Positions 1-7,053 of a stretch of DNA of 7,053 bases are shown here, one piece after another. The stretch spans positions 1 to 7,053 of the forward strand of contig JAGXHC010000037.1 of NCBI GenBank assembly GCA_024636405.1, read 5' to 3'. The notes below the pieces were generated by a model that saw only the letters and a program-made list of their open reading frames with translations, had not been told where the DNA came from and made no database searches. A program made the position numbers and the translations under genes. Numbering within the stretch: position 1 is the stretch's first letter; each line of letters opens with the position of its first letter. The DNA is from Sulfitobacter sp. (GTDB lineage Bacteria; Pseudomonadota; Alphaproteobacteria; Rhodobacterales; Rhodobacteraceae).

Positions 1-888
1 GACCACATGGACCCTGCATTGCCCGTCTATGCGGAGTTCTCAAACGAGGTCTGGAACTGGCAATTTGCACAGACCCGCTGGGCGGACGAGCAGGCACAGG
101 CGCGCTGGGGCGAAAAGGATAAGGGCGCGCAATTCTACGGGGTGCGCGCTGCCGAGATCGCGCGGATATGGACGACGGTTTTTGGTGGCGTAGCCGATGC
201 GCGACTGGTGAATGTGATTGCGACCCAGACCGGCTGGTTAGGGCTTGAGACGGAAATATTGGCGGCACCGCTTTTGCAAGCCCAAGGCGGCGCGGCCCCG
301 GTTGAGGCATTTGATGCCTACGCCGTCAGCGGGTATTTCGGTGGTGTTCTGGGCCTTGCCGACGCCAAGCCAATGGTTGACGGCTGGCTAGCGGACAGCC
401 TTGCAACGGCGCAGGCGGATGCAACGGCACAAGGGCTGAGCGGCGACGCGGCCACGCAATATATTGCGGCGCACCGCTTTGATCTGGCATCCGCGCAAGC
501 AGGCCGCGAGTTGGCGGATGGATCAATCAGCGGCAATCCACAGGACACACTGGCGGATTTGATCGGGCGGGTCTGGCCCTATCACGCGGCTGTGGCGCGG
601 GCGCATGGGTTGGACCTGATCATGTATGAGGGCGGATCGCATGTTGTCGGGATTGGTGCGCAAGTCGACGACGCAGACGTGACCGAGTTCATGCAGCACT
701 TTAATTATACGCCGGAAATGGCGGAACTCTATGGAAAATTATTAGCTGGATGGAAAGACGTTGGCGGGCGGCTTTTCAATGCTTATTCAGACGTCTATGC
801 GCCGACGAAATGGGGCAGTTGGGGTGCGCTGCGGCATCTGGATGATCGAAACCCGCGCTGGGATGCGCTGGTCGATTTTCTGGAATGA
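1..888 (+). CDS. Glycoside hydrolase-like protein (clan GH-A style), 3' part
   Basis: Probably a glycan-cleaving or glycan-binding enzyme acting on the polysaccharide made by this locus; the substrate is unknown. The reading frame is open from base 1, two codons before the first ATG at 7. The protein text around that ATG looks like the interior of a domain, so the true start lies upstream of the window. About 295 residues are visible. An Asn-Glu pair in the context EFSNEVWNW (Glu codon 46-48) resembles the acid/base Asn-Glu of clan GH-A hydrolases. A second Glu in the context MYEGGSH (codon 628-630), 194 residues later, fits the nucleophile strand. The C-terminus, rich in Trp and Tyr (YSDVYAPTKWGSWGALRHL), looks like a natural domain end. 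No membrane segment is visible here, and a signal peptide, if present, would be outside the window. The stop overlaps the start of the next gene, suggesting translational coupling. The family is assigned by motif resemblance only; a catalytically inactive carbohydrate-binding relative is possible. Confidence 0.6.
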   Translation, partial: DHMDPALPVYAEFSNEVWNWQFAQTRWADEQAQARWGEKDKGAQFYGVRAAEIARIWTTVFGGVADARLVNVIATQTGWLGLETEILAAPLLQAQGGAAPVEAFDAYAVSGYFGGVLGLADAKPMVDGWLADSLATAQADATAQGLSGDAATQYIAAHRFDLASAQAGRELADGSISGNPQDTLADLIGRVWPYHAAVARAHGLDLIMYEGGSHVVGIGAQVDDADVTEFMQHFNYTPEMAELYGKLLAGWKDVGGRLFNAYSDVYAPTKWGSWGALRHLDDRNPRWDALVDFLE

Positions 889-1973
889 CGCGCGTCAGTA
901 TCCTGATCCCTGCGCATAATGAGGCGCAGTATCTGTCGGCCTGCCTGGAGGCGATGCTGTTGTCAGACACCGATCCGGATGAGGTTGTGGCGGAGGTGGT
1001 GGTGATCGCAAACGGTTGCATCGACGCAACGGTTTCAATCGCCCGCGCAATGGCAGGCCGGATGGCGGCAAGGGGCTGGACCTTGCAGGTGCTGGAATTG
1101 CCAGAGGGTGGCAAGCTGAAGGCGTTGAACAGGGGCGAGACGGCAGCGACGGGCGATGTGCTGATCTATCTTGACGCGGATGTGCATGTCTCGCCGCCGC
1201 TTGTCGGCCAGATCGTGCGGGCGTTGGATATAGATGCGCCGCGCTATGCCAGCGGCCAGCCGCATGTGCTGACGGCACAGGGCAGGATCGCCCGCGCAAT
1301 GGCAGGCCGGATGGCGGCAAGGGGCTGGGCCTTGCAGGTGCTGGAACTGCCGGAAGGTGGCAAGCTGAAGGCGTTGAACAAGGGCGAGGCGGCGGCGACG
1401 GGCGATGTGCTGATCTATCTTGACGCCGATGTGCATGTCTCGCCGCCCCTTGTCGGCCAGATCGTGCGGGCGTTGGACATAGAAGCGCCGCGCTATGCCA
1501 GCGGCCAGCCACATGTGGTGACGGCACAGGGCAAGATCGGCCGTGCATATGCGCGGTTCTGGCAGACGATGCCCTTCATGACCCAAGGGGTGGCCGGTTT
1601 CGGGCTGTTTGCGATGAACCGGGCCGGGCGCGCGCGCTGGGGCCAATGGCCCGACATCATTTCCGACGATACGTTTGCGCGGTTGCACTTCGCTCCGGCG
1701 GAACGGATCGGGGTCGCGGGCGGGTTTACATGGCCCATGGTTGAAGGTTTCGGGCCATTGGTGCGGGTGCGGCGGCGGCAGGACCGCGGGAACGCAGAGA
1801 TTGCGCAGCGTTATCCGGCGTTATTGCAAAATGCCGATCCGCACGATGGCGCTGTGCCACTTTGGCGGCGCGGGGCGCGTGATCCGGCGGGGTTGGCTGT
1901 TTATCTTGCCGTGCGCATTGCGGGGCGTCTTCCGATACTGCGCAGTCAGGACCGTTGGGCGCGGGGCAGGTAG
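885..1973 (+). CDS. Family 2 glycosyltransferase with internally duplicated catalytic segment
   Basis: Predicted to transfer a sugar from a nucleotide-sugar donor to a growing glycan at the cytoplasmic face of the membrane. The 362-residue protein begins with the GT-A signature VSILIPAHNE (residues 4-13), followed by the second strand VVVIANGCIDAT (38-49). It has the DXD metal/nucleotide motif LDADV at 96-100, and again at 179-183 because residues 52-134 are repeated as 135-217. The acceptor half follows: VAGFGLFAMN (236-245), the probable catalytic Asp pair in ISDDTF (259-264), and RVRRRQDRG (294-302), which resembles the basic R/Q-rich motif of the family. Without the repeat the protein would be 279 residues. 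The start is the ATG of an ATGA overlap with the upstream gene; I see no strong Shine-Dalgarno, which fits coupled translation. No clear transmembrane segment is seen. The family call is secure; donor, acceptor and whether the duplicated enzyme is active are unknown. Confidence 0.88.
   Translation: MTRVSILIPAHNEAQYLSACLEAMLLSDTDPDEVVAEVVVIANGCIDATVSIARAMAGRMAARGWTLQVLELPEGGKLKALNRGETAATGDVLIYLDADVHVSPPLVGQIVRALDIDAPRYASGQPHVLTAQGRIARAMAGRMAARGWALQVLELPEGGKLKALNKGEAAATGDVLIYLDADVHVSPPLVGQIVRALDIEAPRYASGQPHVVTAQGKIGRAYARFWQTMPFMTQGVAGFGLFAMNRAGRARWGQWPDIISDDTFARLHFAPAERIGVAGGFTWPMVEGFGPLVRVRRRQDRGNAEIAQRYPALLQNADPHDGAVPLWRRGARDPAGLAVYLAVRIAGRLPILRSQDRWARGR
1038..1286 (+). repeat. Tandem duplication, copy 1 (249 bp, in frame)
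   Basis: First unit of a direct tandem repeat inside the family 2 glycosyltransferase gene. It starts at ATCGCCCGCGCAATGG and ends at GGCACAGGGCAGG, encoding residues 52-134. Aligned base by base with copy 2, I count 14 mismatches in 249 positions (about 94% identity) and no indels. Six of these change the amino acid, mostly conservatively (Thr/Ala twice, Arg/Lys twice, Asp/Glu, Leu/Val). This unit carries the first GGKLKALN helix and the first LDADV DXD motif, and is contiguous with the N-terminal nucleotide-binding strands. Confidence 0.97.
1287..1535 (+). repeat. Tandem duplication, copy 2 (249 bp, in frame)
   Basis: Second unit, immediately abutting copy 1 and encoding residues 135-217. 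It carries the second GGKLKALN and LDADV motifs and runs straight into the acceptor half of the enzyme. The base following the unit begins ATCGGCCGTGCA (1536-1547), a 10-of-12 match to the unit's own first 12 bases, which marks the likely recombination junction. Confidence 0.97.
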
Positions 1974-1975
1974 CG

Positions 1976-3172
1976 TCAGTCGGCCATCAGCTTGGCTAGT
2001 TTGGCAGCTGCGTCATGCACATCGTGCCGTTCAAGTGCGCGGGTGCGACCGGCTTGCCCCATCTCTTCCAGTCTCGCGACTGATGTCGTGCTCAGCGAAG
2101 TCAGCGCATCCGCCAGCGCGGGCACATCCCCCGCAGGCACCAGCCATCCGGTTACGCCCGGTTGCACCAGTTCAGGCGAGCCCGCGATATACGTGGTGAT
2201 CACCGCACGCGCGGCGGCCATCGCTTCCATCACCACCATCGGCAGACCTTCGGCAAAGCTGGGCATCACCAGCGCATGGGCATTCGCCAATTCCGCATGG
2301 ACGCGGTCTTCTGAAACCCACCCGGTCAGGGTGATGTTGTCAGACAGGCGATGGTGCGAAATAAGTGCCTCGATCTGGCCGCGCATGGGGCCATCGCCGA
2401 TCAGGGTCAGGTGCAGGTCCGGCGCTTCTTTTGTAATCTTTGCCATAGCTGCAATCAGGGCAAGTTGGCCTTTTTGTTCAACGAACCGCCCGATATTGAC
2501 CACCCGGATCGGCCCACCGGGCATTGGACTGGGCGCGGCAAAGCGTTCCGGCTCCACGCCGCAATGTACCACCTTGATCCTGTCCCAGTCATCGTGATCT
2601 GCCCAACGGCAAAGCTGGCTTCGGCAGAACTGGCTGATTGCGACGGTAAAAGTGGCATGGCTGATCTTGGTGCCCAACGACAGTGCGCGCGGGCTGTCGA
2701 ATTCTTCGGGGCCGTGGACGGTAAAGCTGTATTTCGGACCGTCAAGCGCGTGTGCAAGCATCGCAACTGTTGTTGCATTGGTGCCGAAATGGGCGTGCAC
2801 GTGGCTGACCTTGGCGTCCTTGAGCAGGGGCAGGACTGCGCAGGCCTCGGCAAGATAGACAAGGTGCCGCATCATGCCGCCTTCGGATCGCCGGGCGCAG
2901 ACCAGAGCAAGGCGAAACGCGCCGAACCATTGAGCAGGCCTTGTTGCCAGCGTTTTGACCGTGGCGAGGGCCAATGCACCCAAGCCCTCAGCGAGGATAT
3001 ACCGCGTCTGCGCGGCCTCGCTGACGTCCTGGGGGTCCACAGGTATCTCATCGCTGCGGCGCATGGCGATGCGGGTGATGTCATGGCCCTGCGCCTCCAG
3101 CGCGCGCAATTCGCGACGGATAAAGGACTGCGAAGGCTGGGGATAGGTATTGAGAATATAGGCGATCTGCAA
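1976..3172 (-). CDS. Family 4 (GT-B) glycosyltransferase for exopolysaccharide
   Basis: Predicted retaining GT-B glycosyltransferase adding a sugar to the lipid-linked repeat unit in the cytoplasm. Counting from the TTG at 3172 it has 398 residues, normal for the family. The N-terminal domain opens with IAYILNTYPQPSQSFIRREL, typical of exopolysaccharide GT4 enzymes, and has VHAHFGTN (125-132) and FTVHG (150-154). The C-terminal donor domain has NIGRFVEQKGQ (226-236), with Arg229 and Lys234 fitting donor-phosphate contacts. LIGDGPM and GWVSEDRV follow. The EX7E pair is Glu308 and Glu316, in FAEGLPMVVMEAM. Start choice: the TTG has AGGA (3181-3184 on the plus strand) eight bases upstream and sits directly before the conserved first strand. 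An in-frame GTG at 3226 would add 18 residues but lacks a visible ribosome site. The gene converges on the upstream family 2 glycosyltransferase, with stop codons 2 bp apart. The substrate is unknown. Confidence 0.88.
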   Translation of the reverse strand: MQIAYILNTYPQPSQSFIRRELRALEAQGHDITRIAMRRSDEIPVDPQDVSEAAQTRYILAEGLGALALATVKTLATRPAQWFGAFRLALVCARRSEGGMMRHLVYLAEACAVLPLLKDAKVSHVHAHFGTNATTVAMLAHALDGPKYSFTVHGPEEFDSPRALSLGTKISHATFTVAISQFCRSQLCRWADHDDWDRIKVVHCGVEPERFAAPSPMPGGPIRVVNIGRFVEQKGQLALIAAMAKITKEAPDLHLTLIGDGPMRGQIEALISHHRLSDNITLTGWVSEDRVHAELANAHALVMPSFAEGLPMVVMEAMAAARAVITTYIAGSPELVQPGVTGWLVPAGDVPALADALTSLSTTSVARLEEMGQAGRTRALERHDVHDAAAKLAKLMAD

Positions 3173-3323
3173 AACGGCCGTCCTGAATGGATTTTCGCAC
3201 GCTAGCCGGGTGGTTGTGGCTGGCACAAGGGTGCAAAGCGAAATATGGTGCGGCGAAATCTTAGGTGAGGCAATTTTCCCAGTGTTGGCGCGGGTTTCCC
3301 ATGTTCTGAAGGGTTCACACCTG
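3173..3323. promoter_or_regulatory. Divergent intergenic region between GT4 and flippase genes
   Basis: The two flanking genes point away from each other, so this 151-bp stretch (97 bp if the GT4 gene starts at 3226) should contain promoters for both strands. It holds the AGGA ribosome site for the minus-strand TTG start and, at 3308-3313, GAAGGG ten bases before the flippase ATG. I could not identify a convincing -35/-10 pair on either strand. The assignment rests on gene orientation, not on a recognised promoter. Confidence 0.45.
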
Positions 3324-4640
3324 ATGGCGCGCGCGTTGCGCTCTGCATCGTGGATTGTGCTGAGTTACGGCGCCTCACAGGGCATCCGGCTGGCGTCGAA
3401 CCTGATCCTGACGCGGCTGCTGTTTCCTGAGGCATTCGGCCTGATGGCCCTGATCAGCGTGATAACCGTCGGGCTGACGCTGTTTTCCGACGTCGGCATC
3501 GCGCCCTCGATCGCGCAGAGCAAGCGGGGCGATGATCCTGATTTCCTGAACACGGCCTGGACCATTCAAGTGATGCGCGGGTTTGGCCTGTGGCTTGCGG
3601 CCTGCGCGTTGGCTTATCCGGTGTCGGTTTTCTATGGCGAGCCGCTTCTGGCGCTTTATCTGCCTGTCGCGGCGCTGTCGCTGGTGGTGTCGGGGTTCAA
3701 TCCGACGCGCGTCGAAACCGCACACCGCCATCTGCTGATGGGGCGGGTGACCGTGCTTGATCTAATATCGCAAGTGATCGGGATTGTGGCCATGGTGTTG
3801 CTGGCGCTGTGGCTGCAATCGGTGGCGGCATTGGTGATGGGCGGGGTGATCGGTGCGCTGGCCAAGCTGGCGCTGATGCATTTCGGCCTGCCCGGCGCGC
3901 GCAACCATCTGCGCTGGGAGCGGGCGGCAGCGATTGAGCTGGTCACTTTCGGCAAATGGATATTTCTGTCCACCATGTTCTGGTTCTTCGCTTCACAGGG
4001 GGACAAGGCCGTTTTGGGTAAATTCCTGACGCTGGAAAACCTCGGGATATATAACATTGGCTATTTTCTGGCGAGCTTTCCGCTGCTGCTGGGTCTCAGT
4101 GTCACGGGGCGAGTGATGATACCGGTCTACCGCGAAAACGCGGGCCAGATTAATCCGCGACTAAAGCGCATGCGGTACGGGCTGACGGCGGCGGTCATGG
4201 CGCTGCTGGTGGTGATGGCGATGATCGGTCCGTGGCTGGTGTCGGCGCTTTATGACATCCGATATGCCGCGAGCGGGGCGATTGTTGTTGTTCTTTCGGT
4301 CGCGCTAATGCCGCAGGTGATTGGCATGACCTACGATCAGGCAGCGCTGGCGGCTGGAGATTCGCGGCGCTTCTTTGTCTATTCGGCGCTGCGCTCCACG
4401 CTTCAGATTGTGCTGTTGCTGGTGGGGGCTGTCCACTCCGGGTTGATCGGGGCGCTTATCGGGATGGGCGTGGCGATGGTGTTGTCGCACGGGGTGCTGA
4501 TCTGGCTGGCGCGAGCGCACCGGGTGTGGGATCCGCGCCATGACGCCCTTTTTGCCGTGATTGCGATTGTTGTGGGGACATGGGCCGTGTGGCTGAACCT
4601 GCCGCAGATCAAGCTTATGATGGCAATCACCGGGTCCTGA
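3324..4640 (+). CDS. Wzx-type oligosaccharide flippase (PST family)
   Basis: Predicted inner-membrane flippase that moves undecaprenyl-linked repeat units from the cytoplasmic to the periplasmic face for polymerisation. The 438-residue protein is hydrophobic throughout, with about 12 likely membrane segments (roughly 10-30, 38-58, 85-105, 107-125, 150-185, 210-225, 245-262, 287-308, 316-336, 356-372, 374-395 and 408-426). The N-terminal stretch SQGIRLASNLILTRLLFPEA, followed by FGLMALI and a Gly-Ile-Ala-Pro-Ser-Ile segment near 58-63, is characteristic of the polysaccharide-transport branch that includes WzxC- and ExoT-like proteins. The frame is open back to 3210, but the preceding 38 codons do not look like a transporter N-terminus. 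The ATG at 3324 has GAAGGG upstream and begins with the family-like MARALRSASW. The gene converges on the chain-length gene with a 3-bp gap. The family call is strong; the glycan specificity is unknown. Confidence 0.9.
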   Translation: MARALRSASWIVLSYGASQGIRLASNLILTRLLFPEAFGLMALISVITVGLTLFSDVGIAPSIAQSKRGDDPDFLNTAWTIQVMRGFGLWLAACALAYPVSVFYGEPLLALYLPVAALSLVVSGFNPTRVETAHRHLLMGRVTVLDLISQVIGIVAMVLLALWLQSVAALVMGGVIGALAKLALMHFGLPGARNHLRWERAAAIELVTFGKWIFLSTMFWFFASQGDKAVLGKFLTLENLGIYNIGYFLASFPLLLGLSVTGRVMIPVYRENAGQINPRLKRMRYGLTAAVMALLVVMAMIGPWLVSALYDIRYAASGAIVVVLSVALMPQVIGMTYDQAALAAGDSRRFFVYSALRSTLQIVLLLVGAVHSGLIGALIGMGVAMVLSHGVLIWLARAHRVWDPRHDALFAVIAIVVGTWAVWLNLPQIKLMMAITGS

Positions 4641-4643
4641 ACG

Positions 4644-5954
4644 CTAACTTTTTGCGCGCGGTCCATTTCGGGCAAGTCGCGCGGCGCGGCCCTGTTGGCC
4701 TGCCTTGGTCCGGTCATGCAACACCTTGCGCAGACCGCGCGGCATTTTGCGCTTTGGCACTTCGGGTATGGACACCACAGGGGTCAGCCCGGTTTCGCGT
4801 TCCATCTGCCGTGCGCTGCGGATGACCGGGCGGCGGATTTCCAGCATCAACGCCGCCAGCAACGCAAGCGCTACGCTGGCGGCGCCGCCCAGGACCGCGC
4901 GATTGCGGCGGCTCATCGTGATGGGATAGTCGGGCAACAGCGCCTCTTCGATGGTGATCAACCGTTCACCGCGAGACGCCGATTCAAGCGTGAAGCCAAC
5001 CTCTGCCTCATTGCGCCGGGTCGCGACCACCTCAAGTTGGTCTTGCAGTTGCGTCAGACGGCGGTCGAACTTGGCCAGCTCCCGCTCCACTTCCGGTGTA
5101 GTCTGCAATGTCGCGTTCAGCGTGTCGCGGCGGTCGTTCAGCAAACTGCGCTGAGTTGTCAGCGTGTCGATTTGCCCGTCGATCTCAGCCTGTTCGCGCG
5201 CCACGGTGGACGCGCGCCCGCCCTGATCAATGCGCCCGCGCGCCAATTGCGCTGCAATGATCTCGCGGTCCAGCGCAAGGATCGATTCGTTCAGGCTGGA
5301 GATTTCGGCGCGTTGAAATTCAACGCCCCCTTCGACGGAAAGGTCGTTCTCACTGCGGTAGGTTTCAACCTCCGCCTCGAGGGCGCGCAGGTCACGGATC
5401 AGGTTGCGTTCCTGCCCCTGAAAGAACTCAAGCGTTTCGCGGGTCTGCTCCTGGCGCTGTGCCGCAGACAGTGCGCGCGTACGGTCGGCAAATTCATGGG
5501 CAACAAGCTGGGCATTTTCGGCGCTGCCCATTTCGGCGGTGATGGTCAGAACAGCAATGGTGCCATCGTCTGCAAAGCCTTCGCGCGCGGCGGCAACGCC
5601 GGCAATGGTGACAGCAGTGCGCAGCCGGTCCACTTTTTCGGAGGGCCGAAGCGTGGACAAGTCTTGGTAAAGGCCGAATTTGTCGATGATTTCGGTCAGG
5701 CTGCTGCGCGCCATAAGTTGCTGTTCGATCAGCTGCAACCGCCGGGCGGAGGATCCTTCAACCGTGGAGGGGGCCAGATCATTGGCGATCTTGGGCTGCT
5801 CGATCTGTATCACTTCGGCGGAGCGGTACAGATGTGGCTGCTGCAGCGCCCACCAGACAGATGTCAGACAGCCAAGCACGATGATCGCAAGGATCAATCC
5901 TGCGCGCCTGCGGATCATGTCCAGCACGTCTTCGAGAGAATAGATCGGCCCCAT
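4644..5954 (-). CDS. Wzz/GumC/ExoP-type polysaccharide co-polymerase
   Basis: Predicted inner-membrane co-polymerase that controls polymer chain length and helps export, working with the adjacent CpsD-like protein. Counting from the ATG at 5954 it has 436 residues: a cytoplasmic start MGPIYSLEDVLDMIRRR, membrane segment about 18-37, then the Wzz-type periplasmic region. A long Glu/Arg/Leu-rich coiled coil spans about 170-285. A TTPEVEREL segment (285-293) matches the GNVR-type region, and a Pro-containing PDYP (341-344) precedes membrane segment two (about 353-373), as in chain-length regulators. A cytoplasmic tail of about 60 residues follows instead of a fused kinase domain, so the P-loop protein is separate. 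The frame stays open to 6185, but that extension overlaps the upstream gene and lacks family-like sequence. ATG 5963 is an alternative, adding three residues; ATG 5954 was preferred because GGAA lies nine bases before it. Confidence 0.88.
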   Translation of the reverse strand: MGPIYSLEDVLDMIRRRAGLILAIIVLGCLTSVWWALQQPHLYRSAEVIQIEQPKIANDLAPSTVEGSSARRLQLIEQQLMARSSLTEIIDKFGLYQDLSTLRPSEKVDRLRTAVTIAGVAAAREGFADDGTIAVLTITAEMGSAENAQLVAHEFADRTRALSAAQRQEQTRETLEFFQGQERNLIRDLRALEAEVETYRSENDLSVEGGVEFQRAEISSLNESILALDREIIAAQLARGRIDQGGRASTVAREQAEIDGQIDTLTTQRSLLNDRRDTLNATLQTTPEVERELAKFDRRLTQLQDQLEVVATRRNEAEVGFTLESASRGERLITIEEALLPDYPITMSRRNRAVLGGAASVALALLAALMLEIRRPVIRSARQMERETGLTPVVSIPEVPKRKMPRGLRKVLHDRTKAGQQGRAARLARNGPRAKS

Positions 5955-5963
5955 CGTTCTCAT

Positions 5964-6093
5964 TTCCAATCGCTGCCGCCGATAAACGCGACAAGCGCAC
6001 GACGTTTTGTCGTTCAAAACCGAATAGTTTGTCGACAATAGGGCATTCGACAGGTTTCTGACAGTCCTGTGGCATGCCGGGCAGGGCTGCGGC
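5964..6093 (-). promoter_or_regulatory. 130-bp gap with TTGTCG/CGACAA word cluster
   Basis: Non-coding stretch between the CpsD-like stop codon and the co-polymerase start, less GC-rich than its neighbours around 6004-6045. It contains CGACAA at 5989-5994, TTGTCG at 6007-6012, and the overlapping pair TTGTCG 6029-6034 / CGACAA 6033-6038. A small dyad, ACGAC-GTTTT-GTCGT, lies at about 5999-6013. No T-run follows a strong stem, so I do not call a terminator. A promoter or operator giving the co-polymerase gene separate control is an inference from length and repeats. Confidence 0.35.
6029..6038. repeat. Perfect 10-bp palindrome TTGTCGACAA
   Basis: The sequence reads identically on both strands. 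It lies about 75 bp upstream of the co-polymerase start. A half-site, GTTTTGTCG at 6004-6012, recurs as GTTTGTCG at 6027-6034, about two helical turns away, which would suit a dimeric regulator. No known regulator is recognised. Confidence 0.5.
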
Positions 6094-7053
6094 TTAGCTG
6101 TAGCGGCGGATGCTGGCCGCACGCGCCCGGTTAAGGACCACGCCCAGCAGCGGAACCTGACCTTCGAGCATGCGTTCACATTCAATCAGTTGCTTTGCCA
6201 TGGTGCGGGTGCCATCGGACACCAACAATACACCGTCGAGCTGCGGCAAAAATGCAGACAGATCATCGTGGGCCAGCATGGCAGGCAGATCGTAAATCAC
6301 GATCTCGGGCTGCAGCGCCGCGCGCATATCCTGAAGGGTCTGCGCAGTTGCGGGGTTCTGTATGGTCTCGGCGGCATGCGTATCGATTTCGGCGTTGAGC
6401 CCAAGCGCCAAGGTATCACCCAACCGCACGAATTGATCTGTAAGGGGCGTCGACCCATCCAGAAACGCGCGCATCGCAGGGCCGGGCTTTAGCCCAAGGG
6501 CGCGTGCGATACCGGGGCGGCGCAGATTGAGGTCCATCAAAACGGTTCGCGAACCGGGCACCCGTGACAGGCTGAGCGCGAGGTTGACGGCAGTGAACGT
6601 ATTGCCACAGTGAGATGTTGGAGCGCAGACCGCAATATTGCGCCAGCCATTTTCCTGCGTCGTTTGGCGCAACCGGGTGCGCAGCAGATCGAACGCGCGC
6701 AGCGCAGGGCTGTCGCGGTTCGGGTCTACCAATGCCGCAGCGCCGGATGTGCCGCTGGCCGTGTCCGTCTGGGCCTGGGGCAGATCGTCCCATTGCGGTG
6801 TTTCGGGATCGGCAACGATTTGTGGTGTTTCAAGATCAACGATAAATTGGCCAATGATAGGTGTAACTGCGACCTTGTCAGCACTTGGGATCATCTCAGG
6901 ATTGCTTTGGGGCGCGCGCGTCTGCTGTTGGGTCAGACGGCGCGGTCGGATGCTGTGCCGCATACCGGGTTGCGCCTGCAGCCCTTCATGCGCGAGCGTG
7001 GTATCATCCATTGCCCACGGGTCCGCAGGATTTGGGGAGTAATTGTCTTTCAC
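6094..7053 (-). CDS. CpsD/CapB-type P-loop protein with degenerate Walker A
   Basis: Predicted cytoplasmic partner of the co-polymerase, related to bacterial tyrosine kinases (BY-kinases) that control polysaccharide chain length. Of 319 visible residues, 1-110 are a low-complexity, Pro/Gln/Thr-rich leader. The P-loop domain then begins near SPALRAFDLLRTRLRQ (115-130). The Walker A position reads CAPTSHCGNTFTAVNLAL: the glycine of the usual GEGK is His148 and the invariant Lys is Asn151 (codon 6601-6603, AAT in the coding strand). Walker A' is TVLMDLNLRRP (170-180, Asp174) and Walker B is IVIYDLPAML (251-260, Asp255). VLLVSDGTRT and LLGVVLNRA complete the family pattern. The C-terminus has one Tyr (RRYS) rather than a tyrosine cluster. 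The first visible codon is GTG exactly at the window edge, so this may be the start or the gene may extend beyond. The family is clear; kinase activity is doubtful. Confidence 0.82.
   Translation of the reverse strand: MKDNYSPNPADPWAMDDTTLAHEGLQAQPGMRHSIRPRRLTQQQTRAPQSNPEMIPSADKVAVTPIIGQFIVDLETPQIVADPETPQWDDLPQAQTDTASGTSGAAALVDPNRDSPALRAFDLLRTRLRQTTQENGWRNIAVCAPTSHCGNTFTAVNLALSLSRVPGSRTVLMDLNLRRPGIARALGLKPGPAMRAFLDGSTPLTDQFVRLGDTLALGLNAEIDTHAAETIQNPATAQTLQDMRAALQPEIVIYDLPAMLAHDDLSAFLPQLDGVLLVSDGTRTMAKQLIECERMLEGQVPLLGVVLNRARAASIRRYS

Follow-up and report, generated by a model that had tools for sequence, protein, structure and literature searches.

Among reported phenomena, the one that comes closest to the case described here is known from pneumococcus, where segments within capsule genes undergo reversible duplication. 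In the parts of PMC4022640, PMC4243769 and PMC3784515 that recount Waite 2001 and Waite 2003, duplications arise spontaneously within the type 3 locus, cap8E/wchA and tts, switch the capsule off and can revert, so that they lead to phase variation; their site and flanks are described there as random and unique, and long flanking repeats are missing. PMC13410964, in its part that bears on the matter, merely cites Waite 2003. We looked at a 7,053-nt stretch of DNA from Sulfitobacter sp. (contig JAGXHC010000037.1, positions 1 to 7,053; hereafter the window) that carries a gene for a glycosyltransferase of family 2 (GT2; 885..1973, + strand, 362 aa). A segment of this gene, including the metal-binding DXD motif, is doubled in tandem and in frame. 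As in the pneumococcal cases, the duplication lies within a gene probably devoted to polysaccharide synthesis, judging from its neighbours, and long flanking repeats are missing here too. Contrarily to those cases, the frame is kept, no switching is known, and the copies differ at 14 of 249 positions, whereas we read "spontaneous, reversible" as meaning freshly formed, identical copies. In the literature on capsule phase variation or intragenic duplication, judged by title, no matching report of such a tandem duplication in a glycosyltransferase gene was found.

K4 chondroitin polymerase (2z87) and heparosan synthase 2 (8vh8) also have two DXD-bearing segments per polypeptide; they possess two complete glycosyltransferase (GT) domains, whereas here 83 residues of one domain are doubled; 2z87 is classed as multidomain in the relevant part of PMC7185993. 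Two complete GT domains were considered for the present protein and ruled out: residues 52-134 alone are doubled, while the N-terminal strands and the acceptor half are single. We favour, with a probability of roughly 0.48, a genuine lineage-specific partial tandem duplication, in frame, in an exopolysaccharide GT2 gene whose product would fold as one GT-A core built on the second copy and keep partial activity. As far as the letters tell, the doubling is real, unique among the relatives examined and ordinary in its parts.

The repeat unit and its junction

A repeat search of the window gave one long direct-repeat family, composed of positions 1038-1286 (copy 1) and 1287-1535 (copy 2) on the + strand, 249 nt each and 94% identical; the remaining six direct-repeat families are 20-34 nt long and 74-90% alike. 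The two copies adjoin in frame and correspond to residues 52-134 and 135-217, 83 residues each. When compared base by base, they showed 14 nucleotide differences, 8 silent and 6 missense (T66A, R83K, T86A, D117E, L129V and R134K from copy 1 to copy 2, in copy-1 numbering), and 10 of the 14 are transitions. Each copy holds the GGKLKALN sequence of the alphaC helix (1107..1130 and 1356..1379, + strand, the latter recognized in the structural models as well) and a DAD triplet as DXD motif (1173..1181, residues 97-99, and 1422..1430, residues 180-182, + strand). The open reading frame (ORF) is open throughout its 362 codons. The protein matches PF00535 (Glycos_transf_2) with an E-value of 3.3e-29 and 102.4 bits against a cut-off of 23.3, and PF13641 with an E-value of 1.1e-14. 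The DAD triplet follows beta4 in both copies and is invariant in 187/187 other homologues. Further downstream, an SDD triplet (1662..1670, + strand, residues 260-262), in which both Asp are invariant in the alignment A1 described below, would be the equivalent of the xED motif, given as the catalytic base of GT-A enzymes in the corresponding part of PMC7185993. The NCBIfam matches of the protein all fall below the cut-off and point to no specific sugar or polymer; it is from the neighbouring genes that a role in exopolysaccharide synthesis is presumed. Made from the letters alone, the original prediction of a GT2 enzyme of GT-A fold with an intact frame held on all these counts: the repeat coordinates, the division of the 14 differences into 8 and 6, the GGKLKALN and LDADV motifs and the length of 279 residues for a single-copy form were correct, and both the Pfam matches and the structure matches presented below agree with the family and the fold.

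The similarity between the copies ends abruptly on the upstream side, while downstream it fades gradually across a 12-bp imperfect homology. This homology consists of ATCGCCCGCGCA at the unit start (1038..1049, + strand, repeated at the junction at 1287-1298) and ATCGGCCGTGCA just past the unit end (1536..1547, + strand); 10 of the 12 positions match, with ATCG exact at the junction. No long repeat flanking the unit was detected when the unit and its flanks were compared base by base. In the event that we favour, illegitimate recombination or a template switch between the two short homologies would have doubled the segment in frame.

Occurrence among relatives and divergence of the copies

Homologues were taken as the best 120 of 2336 matches together with the best 120 of 763 matches from a second protein search, in which residues 48-222 served as the query, giving 187 other proteins. 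All 187 possess one copy, with lengths of 271-305 aa, and none shares the 83-residue insert. When the doubled protein (P0001) and the 187 homologues were probed with copy 2, two segments were found in P0001 alone. Among the homologues listed, this disposes of the idea, named at the outset as one that would overturn the original prediction, that two DXD blocks are the normal architecture. Five proteins (P0121-P0125, and more weakly P0127) had been taken as candidate two-copy homologues on account of unexpectedly high scores in the search with residues 48-222, and were rejected because a local phmmer run showed their envelopes to overlap on one target segment. The single-copy GT2 protein of the Sulfitobacter brevis locus L001 resembles that of the window in ORF order and in an ATGA overlap with the upstream gene and is 63% identical over the single-copy length, but it holds one 83-residue unit instead of two. 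GT2 matches were present in 54 of the 62 genomes of the genus of L001, and those listed cover at most 230 of the 362 query residues, whereas a two-copy gene would be expected to span nearly all 362. Likewise, no two-copy gene was found among the matches (E-value of 1e-40 or better) in 142 of 394 family genomes, with at most 5 candidates scored per genome.

Among the matches listed, the nearest GT2 homologues are at most 68% identical and the best of 120 flippases at most 80%, and for a neighbouring DNA stretch the long matches in the 62 genus genomes do not exceed about 72% identity. No close relative of the window's organism was found among the listed flippases or in these 62 genomes. No near match suggesting a plasmid origin was found among 72,556 plasmid records; a more distant search with the GT2 gene matched 9 records, and the 5 listed are all annotated as glycosyltransferase, with 60-80% identity. 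The source contig appears to coincide exactly with the window; it is a lone and probably metagenomic contig, to which the data searched hold no close relative.

These features bear on an artefact in which two strain variants were joined in a chimeric molecule or contig. The lone 7,053-bp contig with one member sequence, the absence of the doubling from every relative examined and the allele-like divergence presented below speak for it. However, the junction shares 4 exact bp (12 imperfect) with the unit end, so that a simple error of k-mer assembly is improbable: with k of at least 21, an assembler would presumably need real junction reads. Because the longest exact run common to both copies is 42 bp, ordinary reads are able to distinguish them, and a chimeric read would not only have to outvote the true ones but also happen to fall in frame (1 in 3). 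We therefore regard an artefact as quite unlikely. If it was nonetheless the case, allele-like divergence of tandem copies in a metagenome contig could serve as a signal of a chimera.

Between copy 1 and copy 2, the synonymous rate (dS) is 0.12 and the nonsynonymous rate (dN) 0.034, giving a dN/dS of 0.28. For single-copy orthologues over the same segment, dN/dS ranges from 0.0 to 0.49 with a median of 0.26 (25 closest pairs among 31, the pairs being non-independent). When the 14 changes were placed at random, a mean of 9.6-10.3 were missense, and six or fewer were missense in 1.3-3.6% of runs; this speaks against neutral change in both copies (P 0.013-0.036). With one copy constrained and the other free, six or fewer were obtained in 11-14%, which is compatible with the observed count. 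Both copies keep the family residue at 29 of the 29 sites (of 83) that are at least 90% conserved. The probability that the six changed sites all avoid these 29 by chance is 0.07, and that six random sites are equally variable 0.05, so this avoidance is suggestive only.

The copies join each other in trees with 100% support. Their protein branches are unequal, 0.061 for copy 1 versus 0.009 for copy 2 with IQ-TREE (31 orthologues) and 0.055 versus 0.024 with FastTree (larger set), while their nucleotide branches are near equal (0.028 and 0.031) and the dN to each of the 31 orthologues is much alike from either copy. Over 161 distinct rows, relatives match on average 0.86 sites with copy 1 only and 1.14 with copy 2 only; the common residue is in copy 2 at site 86 (150/187 versus 8/187) and in copy 1 at site 117 (109/187 versus 13/187). 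A decay of copy 1, suggested by the protein branches, was not retained as a reading, the other measures being even or mixed and the missense sites numbering six. Altogether, the copies resemble a pair of ordinary functional alleles. As their dN/dS is allele-like, the numbers fit a retained duplication, but equally a recent joining of two alleles, whether in the cell or during assembly. The original prediction had taken the differences as an argument that the duplicated form persisted under constraint; this was not established, since the dN/dS equals that between single-copy orthologues.

A hybrid origin would also account for these values. Here, the second unit would come from a sister-strain allele about 6% divergent, by transfer and recombination, and the duplication could be very young. 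The dN/dS close to the orthologue median and the near-equal nucleotide branches are as expected from two alleles, and the 14 differences then do not require that an unstable repeat persisted for long. In pneumococcus, transformation is known to give rise to merodiploids, according to the part of PMC3784515 concerned with them. Against this, two events are required, and neither the donor nor a sister strain was found among the matches listed, where identity stays at or below 68% for GT2 proteins and 80% for flippases. We hold this origin to be unlikely.

Predicted structure and the copy in use

Two alignments were supplied to AlphaFold2: A1 (121 rows), in which MAFFT places the 83-residue gap at residues 84-166, and A2 (57 rows), in which the gap is at 52-134. 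The mean predicted local distance difference test (pLDDT) was 84.0 for A1 and 81.8 for A2, with a predicted template modelling score (pTM) of 0.76 for both. In a structure search, the A1 model matched solved GT2 enzymes of GT-A fold, and 2z87 and 8vh8 are among its GT-A fold matches. In both models, the alphaC helix, the DXD motif and the next strand of copy 2 are predicted with confidence and continue without a break into the acceptor half, while the DXD motif of copy 1 falls in a low-confidence stretch. In A1, this stretch covers about residues 73-158 (ten-residue means of 34-67), between a strand at 66-72 and a helix at 159-170, and does not coincide with the alignment gap. The extra residues thus form a low-confidence insert in both models, in line with the claim made beforehand that a single GT-A fold can use only one of the two DXD blocks.

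The A1 model suggests that the insert leaves at the loop between beta3 and alphaC. In its part on GT-A variability, PMC7185993 describes this connection as the hypervariable region HV1, which adjoins the alphaC helix in the vicinity of the donor pocket; known HV1 insertions likewise add residues between beta3 and alphaC, but here, unlike those, the insert is the enzyme's own core, DXD included. Under the duplication that we favour, the protein would fold as one GT-A enzyme, its N-terminal nucleotide-binding strands being combined with the copy 2 alphaC helix and DXD. A stretch as long as one unit, containing the copy 1 DXD, would be extruded, most plausibly at HV1. Since the frame is intact and both copies retain their conserved residues, the enzyme is probably at least partly active. 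If real and active, the protein would offer a natural test of how such an enzyme copes with having its metal-binding segment twice, and of how a variable loop can take up a duplication of the core.

Several points weigh against this picture. Tandem repeats of about 249 bp are expected to be lost often, so the 14 differences need either a long retention against deletion, and thus selection, or two alleles at birth. The copies differ as ordinary alleles do (0.28 versus a median of 0.26), an observation for which a two-allele origin accounts just as well. The evidence comes from a single 7,053-bp contig and one member sequence, P0001 being a cluster with one sequence. On the structural side, the low-confidence stretch of A2 lies at about 41-130 instead (means of 43-71), the placement of the core was read from confidence and secondary structure rather than from coordinates, and the preference for copy 2 stems in part from the alignments supplied. 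Finally, the low-confidence insert may destabilise the protein.

One alternative is a loss-of-function tandem duplication, in which the enzyme would be inactivated by the insert and the polysaccharide lost or altered, until precise loss of one copy restored it. The pneumococcal capsule duplications presented above are its precedent, with their random, unique sites and the same lack of a long flanking repeat, and in A1 the insert adjoins the alphaC helix, near the donor pocket as located in that part of PMC7185993. However, fresh duplications should presumably be identical and these differ at 14/249 positions; the frame is intact, the 29 conserved sites are kept in both copies, and neutral drift of both copies is disfavoured, though not drift of one. 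We consider it unlikely, if the least so of the alternatives. Should the gene be inactive or switching, reversible in-gene duplication of polysaccharide genes would extend from pneumococcus to marine alphaproteobacteria.

The retention of all 29 conserved residues in both copies could also point to a use for the extra unit. Selection may have preserved a duplicate of alphaC, DXD and beta5 as a structural HV1 insert, or the duplicate may be exchanged between protomers so that either copy completes the nucleotide-binding site; we find this very unlikely. If true, it would be a natural case of an in-frame segment duplication tolerated in a Rossmann-like catalytic core. More improbable still is a new function, with the extra unit acting as an HV1 insert that sets acceptor specificity or as a DXD-bearing segment swapped between protomers. 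HV1 residues confer acceptor specificity in MGAT2 (GT16), as stated in the part of PMC7185993 on this enzyme, but no sign of functional divergence was seen between the copies, the insert has low confidence in both models and the protein is a singleton.

Neighbouring genes

The window begins with the 3' part of an upstream gene (1..888, + strand), which has no Pfam match; a similar ORF occupies the same place in S. brevis L001. After the GT2 gene come an EpsE-like GT4 glycosyltransferase (1976..3226, - strand; below the NCBIfam cut-off), a polysaccharide flippase (3210..4640, + strand; Polysacc_synt_3), a polysaccharide chain-length determinant-like protein (4644..5954, - strand; TIGR03007, below cut-off) and an exopolysaccharide tyrosine autokinase-like protein read from the window end (6094..7053, - strand; TIGR03018, below cut-off). 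From the ORFs, the order upstream gene, GT2, opposite-strand GT4, flippase, chain-length protein and kinase is common to the window and S. brevis.

At 885-888, the stop codon of the upstream gene and the start codon of GT2 share an ATGA, and the same type of overlap follows from the ORF coordinates in S. brevis L001 (5001-5004) and in L002. This arrangement suggests that the upstream gene and GT2 may be translationally coupled. The GT4 (- strand) and flippase (+ strand) ORFs overlap at 3210-3226 if the flippase is read from its first GTG. Translation of the flippase probably begins instead at an in-frame ATG, at 3324, since the 120 flippase homologues listed are 412-468 aa long. On the 5' side of the S. 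brevis GT2 gene (L001:20-5004), ORFs were observed that by eye resemble an adenylation/carrier-domain protein, a phosphopantetheinyl transferase and SGNH-like proteins, an unusual company for an exopolysaccharide locus.
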